Below, one piece after another: positions 11,988 through 30,231 of a DNA stretch of 30,690 nucleotides. The notes under the pieces were generated by a model. It searched no databases, was not told the DNA's origin, and worked only from the letters and a program-made list of their open reading frames with translations. The stretch's first letter is position 1, and every line of letters starts with the position of its first letter. Source of the DNA: a virus; IMG/VR virus record IMGVR_UViG_3300035698_002260, positions 1-30,690 of that record. One strand, written 5' to 3'. A program made the position numbers and the translations under genes.

Positions 11988-12362
11988 GTGGAAAGCACGG
12001 ACCGGTCACGTAAATTAAGGGTAGCGACTAAGACCACTCAGGAGAAATGGGAGTTCATGATTCTTATAAACCCTGATGGGGAAGGGCTTTCTGTTGCGGA
12101 TGCTTCTGCGAAATTAGGAATTCATCCGGCAACCGGGTATCGGTGGTTAAATAAACTGTATGAGAGTATGCCCGAGTTCAAAGAAATGATGGAACGTTTC
12201 AATCGTATTGACAAAGAAGAACGGGCACTGGACCGCAGAATGAAGAAGTACGAATACTCCCTAAAGACCCGTAAGCACCATTTCTCCTATGATGAGATTA
12301 TGGATGAACAAGGTGGGGGTTTCACCCAAAATGGCAATGACCCAATTAAGAGGAAATTTTAA
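11988..12362 (+). CDS. Helix-turn-helix DNA-binding protein, first gene of the early unit
   Basis: A 124-residue protein with a GTG start and an excellent TTAGGAGGT site eight bases upstream. Residues about 33-60 read GLSVADASAKLGIHPATGYR, a classic helix-turn-helix of the transposase/terminase small-subunit type. The C-terminal half is highly charged and helical (ERALDRRMKKYEYSLKTRKH). It is the first gene after the divergent promoter and overlaps the polymerase start by TAATG. It may be an early regulator acting on the divergent region or a replication accessory factor; the sequence does not decide which. Confidence 0.75.
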   Translation: MESTDRSRKLRVATKTTQEKWEFMILINPDGEGLSVADASAKLGIHPATGYRWLNKLYESMPEFKEMMERFNRIDKEERALDRRMKKYEYSLKTRKHHFSYDEIMDEQGGGFTQNGNDPIKRKF

Positions 12363-14191
12363 TGATACACCGAACCGTGATAGTTGATAACGATGCTTTT
12401 CGCAGTTGGTTGGCGACAGCAAATTGGGACACCATGGCCTTCGACACGGAGACTACTGACCTGAAATACACAGAACTGGACATCAATGGGTTCTCACTGT
12501 GTGACGGAAAGAAGGTGTGCTACGTGGATTTAGCTGACAATGTGCAAAAAGATAGTATAATAGCCACATTAAAGCATGTTTTAACACACCCAAAGATGAA
12601 GCTAATCATCATGCATAATGCACCATTTGACCTGATGGTACTTCACAAGGTGGGGATTACTGACCCAATAGAGCGTATATTCTGCACAATGACCTCATCT
12701 TACGTGATAGATGAGAACAGACCCAGCCACTCCCTGAAGTACCGGGCATCCGATGAGTTGGGGGAAACGGTGGTATCCTTCACTGAAGCTGAGAAGGAGG
12801 GGGTCCACTCCCATAACTTCCACACATACGCCCAGAATGATGCCTTGTGGACGTACCAGCTATTCCAGAAGGACCTGCCCATCATCAAGAAGCAGAATCT
12901 AACCATGCTGTTCAGGGACATTGAGATGCCCTTCCAGTTCGTTCTCAGGGACTTGGCGATTGAGGGGGTCCTAATGGATGCGAAAGAAATGGAACGTCAG
13001 AAGGTCCTTGCAGAGGCCTTGCTGGACAAACTGGTGATACGGTTAGCTGAGTTGGCCCATATACCCTATGTCATACAGAAAGGATTATCTGGGGACCAGA
13101 CGGCGCAGTGTTCCGTTAATTTCAATAGCACGGCCCAACGTGTCGATATTCTTCAGAAGATGGGGTACACCCTCCGGGAAACTACGGACACAGGGGAACT
13201 GAGTACCGCAAAGGACGTATTGGAACGCCTCCGTCCCACCGGGGAGTTCATCGACAAACTAATCCAGTACCTTACCGTACGAAAGTTAGTAGACTCCTTC
13301 ATCAGCAAACTGCCCCTGCTTCAGTGTTCCGATGGGCGTGTCCGAACCAGCTTCAATAACACGGTGACGGGCCGTTTATCAAGTTCCAAACCAAATCTAC
13401 AAAATCTTCCATCCAACCGCACCAAGTCCGAGTTTGATGTACGGGCCTGCTTCGTGGCACCTGAGGGGAAAACCCTGATTGTCGCTGACTACGGTGGTCA
13501 GGAACTACGTATTCTGGCTGACCAGTCCCAAGATGAGATACTGTTGGATTGCTTTAATAATGGGATGGATGTACACTTAATCGCCGCAAATAAGATATTT
13601 GGACTGAATCTGTCCGATGAGGTATTGTTCGAGGAGAATAAGGACCATGAAGCAACGAAGGAGAAGTATAAACTGGACCGCCATAAGGCGAAGAATGGGG
13701 TGGTGTTCCCGATTATCTACGGGAAAACCGAACTGGGTATCTCTCAGGACTTTGGTATTACCGTGGCAACAGCGACCACTTGGATTACGAAGTTTTTTGA
13801 ACTCTGCCCGGACGTACATAAAGCAATCAAGAAATGCCATAAGTTTCTCTACCACCATAAGTATGTCTATACGAAAAGCGGGAGGAGAAGAAGGTTTGAA
13901 AGAATTGACAACCGTGCTAAACGACAGGCGTATAACTTCTTAATTCAGGGAACGGCGGCAGATATGTTAAAAGTGGCAATGGTAAAACTAAGACACCTTA
14001 TAAAGAACAATCCACAGTGGGAATGTAAGATGGTCCTGACTGTGCACGATGAGATTGTCTTTGAGGTGCTGGATGAATATACGGATGAGGCGGTATCTAA
14101 AATAGAGGAAGTAATGGTTAATGCGTATAAACTCTGCGTCCCGTTGACGGTAGAGATTGGCGTTGGCCGGACGTATTCGGAGGCAAAATAA
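12362..14191 (+). CDS. polA: Family A DNA polymerase with 3'-5' exonuclease domain
   Basis: A 609-residue protein that replicates the phage genome. The N-terminal DEDDy exonuclease has FDTETTD (Asp28, Glu30), NAPFD (Asp90) and YAQND (Tyr156, Asp160). The polymerase domain has motif A ADYGGQELR (Asp376), motif B RHKAKNGVVFPIIYG (Arg440, Lys444, Phe449, Tyr453) and motif C VHDE (Asp563, Glu564). Motif A is DYGGQELR rather than the common DYSQIELR. Motif B carries one extra residue between Lys444 and Phe449 compared with Taq or T7 polymerase. No 5' nuclease domain is present. The gene is coupled to its neighbours by TAATG on both sides. Confidence 0.95.
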   Translation: MIHRTVIVDNDAFRSWLATANWDTMAFDTETTDLKYTELDINGFSLCDGKKVCYVDLADNVQKDSIIATLKHVLTHPKMKLIIMHNAPFDLMVLHKVGITDPIERIFCTMTSSYVIDENRPSHSLKYRASDELGETVVSFTEAEKEGVHSHNFHTYAQNDALWTYQLFQKDLPIIKKQNLTMLFRDIEMPFQFVLRDLAIEGVLMDAKEMERQKVLAEALLDKLVIRLAELAHIPYVIQKGLSGDQTAQCSVNFNSTAQRVDILQKMGYTLRETTDTGELSTAKDVLERLRPTGEFIDKLIQYLTVRKLVDSFISKLPLLQCSDGRVRTSFNNTVTGRLSSSKPNLQNLPSNRTKSEFDVRACFVAPEGKTLIVADYGGQELRILADQSQDEILLDCFNNGMDVHLIAANKIFGLNLSDEVLFEENKDHEATKEKYKLDRHKAKNGVVFPIIYGKTELGISQDFGITVATATTWITKFFELCPDVHKAIKKCHKFLYHHKYVYTKSGRRRRFERIDNRAKRQAYNFLIQGTAADMLKVAMVKLRHLIKNNPQWECKMVLTVHDEIVFEVLDEYTDEAVSKIEEVMVNAYKLCVPLTVEIGVGRTYSEAK

Positions 14192-19666: not shown

Positions 19667-19740
19667 GTGACGGTAGCATAATTGGATAATGCATTGGCTT
19701 GTGATGCCAAGGATTGTGGGTTCGAGTCCCATCCGTCACC
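19667..19740 (+). tRNA. tRNA-His (GTG anticodon)
   Basis: The full cloverleaf can be read. The acceptor GTGACGG pairs with CCGTCAC. The D-stem GCAT/ATGC carries the loop AATTGGATA. The anticodon stem TTGGC/GCCAA holds the loop TTGTGAT with anticodon GTG at 19701-19703, followed by variable GGATT. The T-stem GTGGG/CCCAT has the loop TTCGAGT. The discriminator base is C (19740), as in bacterial tRNA-His. No encoded base is obviously suitable as G-1 (T precedes), so host tRNA maturation at position -1 is uncertain. CCA is not encoded. Confidence 0.9.
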
Positions 19741-20985: not shown

Positions 20986-21408
20986 ATGAACAGACCAAAG
21001 GGGATATTCTACGGGAGGGTCAGGGAAGGCCAAATTATCTTCCAGAACAAGGCCACAGTGATGCGGTTTGTGGAGTCCCTAATGGAAGATACCCCGATTG
21101 TTGTAACAATTGAGCAAGAACATAAGAAACCCTCATTGCAGATGTATGCATACTACGAAGCGTGTATTTGCAAGAGGGTATCGAAGGACGTGGGATATAC
21201 CCCAAAGGAGGTAGATGAAATACTATGTGAACGGTTCCTCACCAAGTTCAGGGGGACAAAAGCCCAATACGTACCATCCAAAGCCGACATAACTGATGAA
21301 GAATTTGCATGGTTTATAGACCACTCTATTCAGTTCTGTGCTATGGAATTTGGAGTATGCATAGAACCAGCCAATAGGAGATGGAAGGAGGAACGTGAAA
21401 AGGATTAA
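20986..21408 (+). CDS. NinB-like recombination protein (tentative)
   Basis: A 140-residue protein. An N-terminal beta part (KGIFYGRVREGQIIFQNKAT, PIVVTIEQEHKKPSLQMYAY) leads to helices with the pattern YYEACICKRVSKDVGYTPKE, a leucine/cysteine-rich LCERFLTKF segment, and DITDEEFAWFIDHSIQFCAM. It closes FGVCIEPAN. This layout (RS/KPSxQ-YY, G-T-x-E-E-V, LT-x-EF-xx-Y/FI, G-V-x-I-P/EP) is common in phage proteins annotated as NinB or related recombination-mediator proteins that bind ssDNA. It neighbours nuclease and SSB genes. The exact family is tentative. Confidence 0.55.
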   Translation: MNRPKGIFYGRVREGQIIFQNKATVMRFVESLMEDTPIVVTIEQEHKKPSLQMYAYYEACICKRVSKDVGYTPKEVDEILCERFLTKFRGTKAQYVPSKADITDEEFAWFIDHSIQFCAMEFGVCIEPANRRWKEEREKD

Positions 21409-21570: not shown

Positions 21571-21930
21571 ATGAATTTAGTACTGATTAGAGGACGGTTG
21601 ACAGCGGACCCGAAATCCCGCACAGCAGGAAGCACCACGATTGCAGGGTTTACGATTGCCCTGAATGAGAAGTCAAAGGATGGCAAGGAGACGGTGAAGT
21701 TCTTCCGTTGTAAGTTCTTCGGGAAACAAGCCGAGAACGTGGTTAAGTGGTTTACCAAAGGCAAAGAGATAATTATTGAAGGTGCGTTGGACCAAGAAAA
21801 GTTCCAAGACAAGAATGGTAATGACGTGGAAATCGTTGTTATCAAAGGGTTCCGCTGGGAATTTGTTGGTGGGGACAAGAAGAAGGATGATGCGCCGAGT
21901 GCAGAAGATAATGCCGGAGGGCTCTGGTAA
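21571..21930 (+). CDS. ssb: Single-stranded DNA-binding protein
   Basis: A 119-residue OB-fold SSB. The N-terminal MNLVLIRGRLTADPKSR, TIAGFTIALNE, FFRCKFFGKQAENVVKWFTKG and KEIIIEGAL are the standard SSB strands and helix. The tail KKDDAPSAEDNAGGLW is short, acidic and ends in GLW instead of the bacterial DDDIPF tip. That tip is instead present on the helicase two genes downstream. The ATG is preceded by TTGGAG. SSB coats ssDNA at the fork and in recombination. The gene overlaps the next by TAATG. Confidence 0.9.
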   Translation: MNLVLIRGRLTADPKSRTAGSTTIAGFTIALNEKSKDGKETVKFFRCKFFGKQAENVVKWFTKGKEIIIEGALDQEKFQDKNGNDVEIVVIKGFRWEFVGGDKKKDDAPSAEDNAGGLW

Positions 21931-22346
21931 TGACAACGGAAACGTGGGAATCTCGATTCGATGAGTTTTGGAAGTTATATCCATCCCGCAACGGTGTTCG
22001 TACTGGTAAAGCTGTGGCACGTAAGGCGTGGATGAAACTAAAGGGTGATGATGCTCTGTTTGAGTTGATACTGAAGGCCCTGATGTGGAACCTGCACAGC
22101 AACGATGATTGGTTGAAGGACAACGGACAGTTTATACCGATGGGGTCCACATGGTTGAACCAGAAGCGTTGGGAAGACCTTGAGGATGCCGGGTATGTAG
22201 TGGATACACGGGTTGACCCAGTTGACCAAGCTGAGGTGGATGCGGTTGAAACGCCGAACATCCAACGGATGCCAAGGTCCTTACAGCATACGTTATCGTT
22301 GCGGGAAAAGTACATACAGTTTCGTGGAATAAAGGTAGGAGTATAA
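21930..22346 (+). CDS. Probable helicase loader / replisome organiser domain protein
   Basis: A 138-residue protein. FDEFWKLYPSRNGVRTGKAV, then ARKAWMKLK and later NGQFIPMGSTWLNQKRWED, matches the domain found at the C-terminus of many phage replication initiators and DnaT-like loaders (F-x-x-FW-x-x-YP-x-R...ARKAW...P-x-x-STWLNQ-x-RW). Here the domain stands alone without an N-terminal winged-helix part. The tail from residue 85 is disordered. It sits between ssb and the DnaB-type helicase, so loading or recruiting that helicase is the likely role. Confidence 0.7.
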   Translation: MTTETWESRFDEFWKLYPSRNGVRTGKAVARKAWMKLKGDDALFELILKALMWNLHSNDDWLKDNGQFIPMGSTWLNQKRWEDLEDAGYVVDTRVDPVDQAEVDAVETPNIQRMPRSLQHTLSLREKYIQFRGIKVGV

Positions 22347-22347
22347 T

Positions 22348-23538
22348 ATGACAGCAACCTATTTTAGTAGAGAAGTTCGCAAGGTAGTAGCGAATGCAGG
22401 TGTGCTTGCTGGTGGACACTCCTCAGGTTTTGATGTTCTGGACAATGTATCGTTGTTGCGGGCCGGTGAATTGACACTGGTTGCCGCACGTCCGGGAATT
22501 GGCAAGAGTTCATTCATGGCCGATTTGGTGCTGAATATGAGTAATCGTATGCCAGCACTTGTATTCAGTTGTGAGATGTCCAATGGGGTGCTATCCGAGA
22601 GGTTGGTAGCGAACATGGCCGAGATACCCCCGAAGTTGCTACCCACGGACCTGAGCGAGAATGACCGTAAGAAGCTGGACAAGACCATGACCAAGTTAGA
22701 GAACCGGGACATTGTACTGGATGACACGGCGGGGGTGACCCCTAAGTACGTGGATGATTGCATGGCTAAGTTCGCTGATGTGGTACGGAAGTGCAAGACT
22801 GCGGGGAAATACCCCACGGAAACGGCACTGGTTTGTATTGACTATCTTCAATTGATGCGTCCAAACGAGAAGAATCGGGCCCGGTATGAAGAAGTTGATG
22901 AAATGGTGTATTCCGTGAGGGAGTCCGCTAAGAAGCATAACATGATTGTAGTACTCCTGTGCCAGTTGAACCGTGAGGTGGATAATCGCAAGTCGTTTGA
23001 ACCCCGACTATCAGACCTTCGGGAGTCCGGTGGAATTGAGCAAGCTGGGGACCTAATCCTCATGCTACACCGTCCGGCATACTATAAAATGCAGGAATTT
23101 GGTGTGGAAACCCCGGATGATGGCGAGGCCTTCGTTATTGTTGCGAAGAATCGGCAGGGCCCAACGGGTAAAATGAGGTGTGTTTGGGTGCCGGAGATTA
23201 TGAGTTTTCGTAGCATCGGCGGGTGGGCTGAGGAAGATAGCCCGGAATTGGACAGCAATCTACTCAGCACGGACGTGGATGAGCCAAAAAAGCCGGACCC
23301 AACGTATGAACCTGTTGAGGATAAAACGCCACAGGGGGGCACACAGACGGTCACAGGGGATTTGACTGACAGCAATGGAACGCCCATTGAATATGATACG
23401 ACCTCAGTGGATTTATCAGACTGCCAAAATGACAGTGGATTGCCCGATTTGTTCGCGGGGGAAACACCGGATGACAAGCCGGAACCCCACGTGGAACAGC
23501 CAGAAGTTGAAATGCCTGATGATGACATTCCGTTTTAG
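22348..23538 (+). CDS. dnaB: DnaB-type replicative helicase with SSB-like C-terminal tip
   Basis: A 396-residue RecA-fold helicase that unwinds DNA at the fork. Walker A is ARPGIGKSS (Gly50, Gly52, Lys53, Ser54) and Walker B LVCIDYLQLM (Asp165). QLNREVDNR and LRESGGIEQAGDLILMLHRP are the DnaB motifs 3 and 4 region with the arginine-finger area. The usual N-terminal domain of DnaB is missing; the RecA domain starts within 40 residues of the ATG. From about residue 305 there is a long disordered acidic tail that ends VEMPDDDIPF, the same hexapeptide as the tip of bacterial SSB. The ATG follows GGAG. Confidence 0.9.
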   Translation: MTATYFSREVRKVVANAGVLAGGHSSGFDVLDNVSLLRAGELTLVAARPGIGKSSFMADLVLNMSNRMPALVFSCEMSNGVLSERLVANMAEIPPKLLPTDLSENDRKKLDKTMTKLENRDIVLDDTAGVTPKYVDDCMAKFADVVRKCKTAGKYPTETALVCIDYLQLMRPNEKNRARYEEVDEMVYSVRESAKKHNMIVVLLCQLNREVDNRKSFEPRLSDLRESGGIEQAGDLILMLHRPAYYKMQEFGVETPDDGEAFVIVAKNRQGPTGKMRCVWVPEIMSFRSIGGWAEEDSPELDSNLLSTDVDEPKKPDPTYEPVEDKTPQGGTQTVTGDLTDSNGTPIEYDTTSVDLSDCQNDSGLPDLFAGETPDDKPEPHVEQPEVEMPDDDIPF

Positions 23539-23546
23539 GAGATACA

Positions 23547-24332
23547 ATGTTACGAATAAGCGATTTAGACGTAGTATGCCCTATATGTAGCAAACCTGAC
23601 TACTGCTTGATGAGTGATGATGGCCTTGCTTGCATTTGTACCCGTATTTCCGCTGGTTCGGTAAAACAATGTGGTAGTGCTGGGTACCTCCATATATTGG
23701 AGAAGGGCAAGTTCAAGGGGAAGAAGTTTACCCCGAAGGAACGACCGGACATTAACTGGTTTAACCTGATGAAGATGTATGAGGACAAGCTACGAAAGAG
23801 TCTGGAAGTGCTGGAAATAGGCCTTAAAGAGGAAACACTGAAGCAGTTCTGCATTGGGTGGGATGGGCAAGCGTTCACCTTCCCGATGCGGGACGAAACG
23901 ACAAGGCCCATTGGCATACAGATTCGATTCAAGGATGGAAAGAAGATGACAATTAAGGGGAGTCAAGCAGGGTTATTTATGCCGAATATGCTGGTGATTG
24001 AGGACATACTAGCCATTACTGAGGGTTTGTCAGATGCGGCAACCTTAACGGAGATGGGGGTACCCGCAATTGGTAGGTTTAACTGCAACTCCGGGGGTGA
24101 AATGATTGTTAACTATGCCAAGTGGTTGCCAAAGACCCCCCACATCGTGCTGGTGGGTGACAATGATGGGGCGGGCAAGGAAGGCCTTGAAGCATTAGGT
24201 GCCTTGCTAACAGCCCGTGGGATAGGGCACACTAAGGTATACCCATCCAAGTTTAAGGATGTCAGGGAGGCCTATGTTACAAAGGGCCTAACCAAGGATG
24301 ACTTTTACCACATAGTTAAGGCAAGGATATAA
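23547..24332 (+). CDS. DNA primase (zinc finger plus TOPRIM)
   Basis: A 261-residue protein. An N-terminal zinc site is formed by CPIC (11, 14) and CIC (29, 31) with extra cysteines at 20 and 42. A linker and a primase core strand block (FTFPMRDETTRPIGIQIRF) follow. The TOPRIM fold then appears: ILAITEGLSDAATLTEMGVP (Glu159) and VLVGDNDGAGKEG (Asp205, Asp207). This is the compact phage primase arrangement, with the helicase in a separate upstream gene instead of fused as in T7 gp4. It lays down RNA primers for lagging-strand synthesis. Confidence 0.9.
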   Translation: MLRISDLDVVCPICSKPDYCLMSDDGLACICTRISAGSVKQCGSAGYLHILEKGKFKGKKFTPKERPDINWFNLMKMYEDKLRKSLEVLEIGLKEETLKQFCIGWDGQAFTFPMRDETTRPIGIQIRFKDGKKMTIKGSQAGLFMPNMLVIEDILAITEGLSDAATLTEMGVPAIGRFNCNSGGEMIVNYAKWLPKTPHIVLVGDNDGAGKEGLEALGALLTARGIGHTKVYPSKFKDVREAYVTKGLTKDDFYHIVKARI

Positions 24333-29664: not shown

Positions 29665-29743
29665 ATACAATTCAGGAATATTGAATGGAAGTAAGTGGAA
29701 ATTTTACATGGTGCAAACAACATTCGTGAAAGTAAGTGAATGA
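29648..29743 (+). CDS. Possible 31-residue peptide upstream of def
   Basis: ATG 29648 with AAAGGAAAG upstream encodes MVRMTKYNSGILNGSKWKFY and an eleven-residue end, VQTTFVKVSE plus the internal Met. Its stop overlaps the start of the deformylase gene (ATGATGA), which supports coupling. The product is short and basic. It is a plausible but unproven gene. Confidence 0.45.
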   Translation: MVRMTKYNSGILNGSKWKFYMVQTTFVKVSE

Positions 29744-30231
29744 TGAAGAAGGTGACAACGAAAGCACGTAAGAATAGAATCTGTGACCGAGCCCTATTAA
29801 AGAAGATTCGGGTGTACCCTGACCCCGTGTTACGTTCAACGTGCAAGAAGGTTAAGGATGTACTGGGTGAAGAAACAATGGCTATCGTGGACCTGATGAC
29901 AAAGGTACTGACCGCAACTAAGAATGGGGTGGGAATTGCCGCCAATCAACTGGGGTTCACGAAGCGTATTATTGCTCTACGACCTGCCCGGCACAACGTA
30001 ATCGTAATGATTAACCCAAAAATTACATGGAAAAGTAAAGAAACATACGGGCAGTTTGAATCCTGCCTATCCTACCCGGGGAGGCGTGGAAAGGTTGACA
30101 GGCCCATGGCAATTGTTGTTGAGTATATTGACCGGGAGGGTGTGAAGAATGTGATGGAGGGCACTTTCTGGATAGCCCGTATTATCCAGCATGAAGTGGA
30201 CCACCTTAATGGAAAATGTAAGTTACAGTAA
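29740..30231 (+). CDS. def: Peptide deformylase
   Basis: A 163-residue enzyme that removes the formyl group from nascent proteins. All three family motifs are visible: GVGIAANQLG (63-72, motif 1), ESCLSYPG (107-114, motif 2 with metal ligand Cys109; the usual EGCLS has Ser instead of Gly) and QHEVDHLNG (150-158, motif 3, HExxH with His151, Glu152, His155). It ends soon after motif 3, so the C-terminal helix of bacterial enzymes is missing, as in other short phage deformylases. It probably supports rapid synthesis of phage or photosynthesis-like membrane proteins, depending on host. The start could also be the next ATG. Confidence 0.9.
   Translation: MMKKVTTKARKNRICDRALLKKIRVYPDPVLRSTCKKVKDVLGEETMAIVDLMTKVLTATKNGVGIAANQLGFTKRIIALRPARHNVIVMINPKITWKSKETYGQFESCLSYPGRRGKVDRPMAIVVEYIDREGVKNVMEGTFWIARIIQHEVDHLNGKCKLQ

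Follow-up and report, generated by a model that had tools for sequence, protein, structure and literature searches.

A bacterial SSB-type C-terminal tip on the DnaB-type helicase of an uncultivated virus, and its recurrence on other ring helicases

The DnaB-type replicative helicase encoded on a 30.7-kb uncultivated virus record ends in DDDIPF, the C-terminal tip (SSB-Ct) of the E. coli single-stranded DNA-binding protein (PMC5872125). We refer to the whole stretch of DNA analyzed (30,690 nucleotides) as the window. The tip lies on a predicted disordered arm and is unlikely to be a random ending, and acidic-x-P-F tips recur on viral helicases of the DnaB/gp4 type as well as on cellular DnaB of Bacteroidota. 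On balance, we slightly favor the reading that it serves as a multi-copy SSB-Ct-like docking peptide, which would tether SSB-Ct-binding proteins at the fork much as the gp4 tail of phage T7 does for its partner. The helicase gene and its 3' end comprise the following features:

22348..23538, plus strand: DnaB-type replicative helicase, RecA-like C-terminal domain only (396 aa; AGGAG upstream)
23236..23535, plus strand: acidic, Pro-rich tail, predicted disordered (helicase residues 297-396; pLDDT mostly <50)
23518..23535, plus strand: DDDIPF, the last six residues, which match E. coli SSB-Ct exactly
23537..23541, plus strand: AGGAG ribosome-binding site of the TOPRIM primase gene, overlapping the helicase stop codon and sparing the Phe codon

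The last codons (23509-23538) read GAA ATG CCT GAT GAT GAC ATT CCG TTT TAG and encode EMPDDDIPF, which confirms to the nucleotide the ending reported in the original prediction. The core matches Pfam DnaB_C (residues 24-288, E=1.5e-59), PHROG 19 (1.7e-63) and solved DnaB structures (residues 20-297, E down to 2.5e-45). Neither Pfam nor the alignment, which starts at about residue 20, shows the DnaB N-terminal domain (primase/loader binding), and the helicases of related phages are truncated in the same way. In an AlphaFold2 model built from 28 sequences, the core (residues ~22-295) has pLDDT values mostly >90. Values are mostly <50 from residue 297 to the C-terminus, and we therefore regard the last 100 residues as a flexible arm. 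With 30 acidic and 4 basic residues among the last 107 (18 D, 14 P), the long acidic disordered tail that had been predicted is indeed present. A tail-only search of the phage collection found no similar tails. The possibility that the terminal codons are dictated by the ribosome-binding site of the next gene was rejected, as the AGGAG overlaps the stop and not the Phe codon. Residues 363-369 of the tail (23434-23454), SGLPDLF, faintly resemble a clamp-binding motif and can be compared with the end, KIPDLFDE, of a small-terminase-like protein of the same phage (10689-11480, minus strand).

A single-protein search of IMG/VR found no close homologues of the helicase, and none above ~45% identity was found in the collections searched. 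A profile built from two helicase sequences returned eight loci, of which only an already known relative (L131) was close. This nearest helicase (43-45% identity), encoded by the syntenic phage G010, lacks the tail and ends NFKLEEQF. Searching with the family A polymerase added the group members G158, G159 and G169, whose helicases end NVELGDI, NPNFKVEF and MEWSDSDDVPF, respectively; the G169 helicase is more distant (26%), and its polymerase is related to that of the window. Of the five helicases of the group, two carry a canonical tip and four a terminal Phe; the one closest to that of the window (43%) ends EEQF.

The SSB of the window was correctly described as lacking the bacterial tip. 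It ends AEDNAGGLW and has no D-D-x-[IL]-P-F, though its C-terminus is still short, acidic and aromatic-ended. The other OB-fold SSBs of the group end NEEAW (G159) and ESVDI (G158), while the G010 protein belongs to a small SSB family and ends GDLGF. A canonical PF tip is absent from all four SSBs identified (window, G159, G158 and G010); no SSB was identified in G169. These endings would fit a replacement of the SSB tip by one on the helicase but do not prove it. The original proposal that the peptide had moved from the SSB to the helicase is possible, with four tipless SSBs in the group, but unsupported, as the helicase of the nearest relative is also tipless and Bacteroidota mostly carry the tip on both proteins.

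In SSB-Ct pockets, a conserved basic residue binds the carboxylate of the terminal Phe and a basic rim binds the acidic residues (PMC5872125). The C-terminal tail of T7 gp4 serves for docking at the fork (PMC8472574, PMC8835902); these acidic tails bind patches on the gp5 polymerase, and their removal lowers processivity about threefold (PMC8472574). Because of this precedent and the pocket chemistry, we read the helicase arm as a multivalent docking peptide. A ring helicase would display as many as six tips at the fork junction, all from its C-terminal face. The partner that docks could have an SSB-Ct pocket, with its basic rim and Phe pocket, as RecO, PriA, Exo I, Pol III chi and DnaG-C do, or it could be encoded by the phage and have a similar pocket, the Orf homologue being one example. 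Docking would raise the local concentration of the partner at the phage fork and may help to load, restart or hold together the machinery. By analogy, the arm would act as the gp4 tail does, but with a bacterial address peptide substituted for the one that T7 uses. That the ending is exactly DDDIPF, and not a diverged acidic-Phe end, favors a pocket like those that bind host SSB-Ct. Three observations speak against the docking reading: the closest homologue is tailless, the exact DDDIPF is rare on helicases, and most tipped viral helicases lie in a Bacteroidota-related region of the tree that excludes the window helicase.

Comparison with described systems shows what is shared and what is particular to the window. 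Like the window helicase, T7 gp4 is a phage ring helicase with an acidic, flexible, Phe-ended tail, and it lends the tethering role suggested originally an experimental precedent. It also makes the original remark, that no described case was known, partly wrong, as gp4 is a described helicase with a docking tail of this kind, albeit one that differs in sequence and has an established phage partner. The T7 tail is short, differs in sequence from SSB-Ct and binds gp5, whereas the window helicase has only candidate partners; the T7 primase is fused to the helicase, whereas the window has a separate TOPRIM gene (23547-24332). With bacterial SSB, the window helicase shares the last six residues and their position on a disordered arm. 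The carrier, however, is a helicase and not an OB-fold SSB, the acidic, Pro-rich arm is unlike any SSB linker found, and the tip sits at the helicase ring, whereas that of SSB is displayed along coated ssDNA. The tail of the HK620 phage SSB, NDYPPF, docks the phage recombination protein Sak4 (PMC5928155); there, unlike in the window, the tip is carried by the SSB.

As partners, the phage Orf/NinB homologue, primase and polymerase are equally possible as host proteins. The relevant genes are:

12362..14191, plus strand: family A DNA polymerase, 609 aa (Pfam DNA_pol_A 6e-87), a candidate for tip binding as the counterpart of T7 gp5
20986..21408, plus strand: NinB/Orf-like recombination mediator (PHROG 72, E=7e-7), a candidate phage-encoded tip binder
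21571..21930, plus strand: OB-fold SSB, 119 aa (Pfam SSB 6.6e-20; PHROG 44 4e-28)
21930..22346, plus strand: small protein resembling the C-terminal part of phage replication-initiation/primosomal proteins (PHROG 9474 4.8e-21; PHROG 9327, primosomal protein, 3.6e-17)
23547..24332, plus strand: TOPRIM primase, adjoining the helicase downstream (PHROG 239/47 DNA primase 9e-12/4e-10; weak Pfam Toprim), a candidate tip partner

The genes are ordered exonuclease, NinB/Orf-like protein, SSB, small initiator-like protein, helicase, TOPRIM primase, RNA-ligase-family protein and NinG-like nuclease, with the family A polymerase gene 8 kb upstream. For the Orf-family protein YbcN, binding to E. coli SSB depends largely on the SSB C-terminal tip (PMC4118853), which makes the NinB/Orf homologue a possible tip reader; binding of lambda Orf to SSB is independent of the last SSB residues (PMC4118853). 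Orthologues of the NinB/Orf-like protein in related phages match the same family weakly, the AlphaFold2 model, built from 2 sequences, has a pLDDT of 44, and searches by sequence found no relative of solved structure. Judging from its profile matches, the small protein (21930..22346) is a candidate helicase loader or adaptor. A tRNA-His gene (GTG anticodon; 19667-19740, plus strand) lies between gene blocks.

The gene content bears on a narrower version of the tether, in which the tail docks only the phage polymerase or primase, no host protein takes part, and convergence accounts for the resemblance to the host SSB tip. T7 gp4 and gp2.5 both have acidic ends with a terminal Phe (read as STDWSNDTDF and DEDGDF, respectively), the gp4 tail binds gp5 (PMC8472574), and the window has the same set of family A polymerase, primase and SSB. 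A T7-gp4-type primase-helicase found among other viral proteins (L105/L223) ends GEDDGGDDDIPF and adjoins its polymerase gene; in this phage (L105/G011), the helicase (GDDDIPF) and the gp2.5-like SSB (SEDVDF) share an acidic-Phe ending. Relatives of the window helicase that retain only the terminal Phe (EEQF, KVEF) also fit such a tether. Convergence by itself, however, leaves unexplained why the end is exactly DDDIPF, Ile-Pro included, which is what bacterial SSB-Ct pockets recognize, and T7's own tail has no IPF. We therefore consider a purely phage-internal tether unlikely, while it is the best placed of the alternatives to docking by SSB-Ct-binding proteins.

A drifting acidic, Pro-rich tail might also end in DDDIPF by chance. 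The absence of the tip at 43% identity is in line with this, and the composition of the tail improves the odds. We defined a strict tip as at least two acids in three residues followed by a hydrophobic residue, P and F at the C-terminus. Such a tip arose in 0.01% (1/10,000) of shuffles of the helicase's own tail, and the probability of the exact hexapeptide from that composition is ~3e-7. Among 196 stop-to-stop frames of at least 60 aa in the window, this frame only has an acidic PF end, and the correction for picking one gene among all in the window is a factor of perhaps 50. The tip exceeds chance expectation even allowing for every gene that might have drawn notice.

Tips of the same kind are also greatly over-represented on other DnaB helicases, which speaks for docking and further against coincidence. 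Among 79 complete viral DnaB helicases (53 clusters) collected for the similarity of their cores, 8 end in PF, each in a different cluster (8/53), compared with 0.19 expected from shuffled tails of the 79; examples are RRENDEDIPF, KDEDDEMPF and EEDSKDLPF. In a second viral sample, chosen for likeness to Bacteroidota DnaB, the figure is 24 of 69 against 0.22 expected. A chance ending is thus improbable. Even less probable is autoregulation, in which the tail would fold onto its own DNA-binding channel or a neighboring subunit and compete with ssDNA, as acidic SSB tails, which can inhibit DNA binding, are known to do (reviewed in PMC9917605): the tail has the length, strong acidity and flexibility for it, but this role would require charge and not an exact IPF end, the AlphaFold2 model, of a single chain only, shows no confident contact between tail and core, and the tail is missing in relatives.

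The exact hexapeptide is distributed differently from the looser tip. Scanning IMG/VR for DDDIPF before a stop codon gave at least 240 ORFs (L005-L124, L513-L632), of which 94 are SSB-like and 146 not, according to a rough profile. Only 1 of these 240 listed viral ORFs, the L105 primase-helicase, was of the DnaB/gp4 kind, and exact DDDIPF is therefore rare on ring helicases, whereas the looser acidic-x-P-F tip is not rare on those of viruses. The ORFs that are not SSB-like include SF2 helicases (L037, L071, L079, L565), an Erf annealing protein (L019), a processivity-factor (sliding-clamp-like) homologue (L068) and families of unknown function. No relatives of a gut DnaB ending NNGDLPF (L002) were found in genomes.

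Cellular DnaB of Bacteroidota carries such tips as a rule (loci L415-L444, L225-L304). Most of the Bacteroidota DnaB proteins fetched by similarity end DDEDIPF, DDDVPF, DDDMPF or alike. In an evenly drawn sample of the phylum, the best 30 loci of 61 genomes, which include one near-identical pair and the seed genome, gave 28 complete proteins; 24 of these end in PF, 15 of them acidic by our rule. The same procedure applied to two other phyla, those of Peptoniphilus and of a genome titled Deltaproteobacteria, found no PF ends among 18 and 27 proteins, respectively. The C-terminus of E. coli DnaB is PQYDDE. Like the window helicase, these are DnaB helicases with an acidic-x-P-F end, but they are full-length, with the N-terminal domain, and occupy a separate region of the tree. 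A PF-tipped SSB is also present in 14 of the 18 Bacteroidota genomes checked, so that both proteins are usually tipped. A swap of the tip from SSB to helicase is thereby rejected as a general rule for Bacteroidota, and it was rejected for the L105 phage as well. Two Bacteroidota genomes (G022, G033) have a tipped DnaB and no tipped SSB among the SSBs found. In G042, G064 and G069, the DnaB frames span 870-1245 aa, with the DnaB_C match in two parts, as expected for inteins.

In a tree of 125 DnaB cores, many supports of which are weak, the window helicase pairs with L131 (SH-aLRT 99) within a set of 14 rows, no other row of which satisfies the tip rule. It is placed away from the Bacteroidota-like DnaB cluster and is not a member of that lineage, and inheritance of the tip from Bacteroidota DnaB is unsupported by this placement. 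Shine-Dalgarno-like sites precede 15 of the 20 start codons checked in the window, which argues against a Bacteroidota host. Over the whole tree, at least 18 changes of tip state are counted. Repeated gain or loss of the helicase tip is clear, and this is the expected behavior of a short linear motif.

SSB-Ct counts both as a drug target and as the hub of genome maintenance in bacteria and, to our knowledge, has been treated as always carried by SSB. A full-text search of the freely accessible literature found no description of an SSB-like tip on Bacteroidota DnaB. The helicase tip is near-universal in the Bacteroidota DnaB sampled and recurrent in phages, and we consider its presence on Bacteroidota DnaB and many viral helicases more interesting than the single phage case. 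We tentatively suggest, with doubts outweighing confidence, that the SSB-Ct code is a general address label of the fork: displayed by the ring helicases of some phages and of Bacteroidota, it would draw SSB-Ct-binding proteins to the helicase in addition to coated ssDNA, with the helicase as sole carrier in phages whose SSB is tipless. If true, display by the replicative helicase as well as by SSB would change the view of how partners reach the fork, and a helicase-borne SSB-Ct would matter for inhibitors of SSB-Ct pockets.

Some further endings and motifs were observed along the way. The SSB of phage G002 (L220) reads ETGDDLPF followed by IITILLAVGTLLPFMI without an intervening stop, which makes the canonical tip internal; either the stop codon has been lost or the added residues are a hydrophobic extension. 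Phage G010 (L131, L224) has at least nine small ORFs, apparently a paralogous family, with a C-terminal Q[LM]DF[SA]F that resembles a sliding-clamp-binding peptide. In the window itself, motifs resembling those of peptide deformylase (GIAANQLG, ESCLSYPG and QHEVDHLNG) can be read from the sequence at 29740-30231 on the plus strand.
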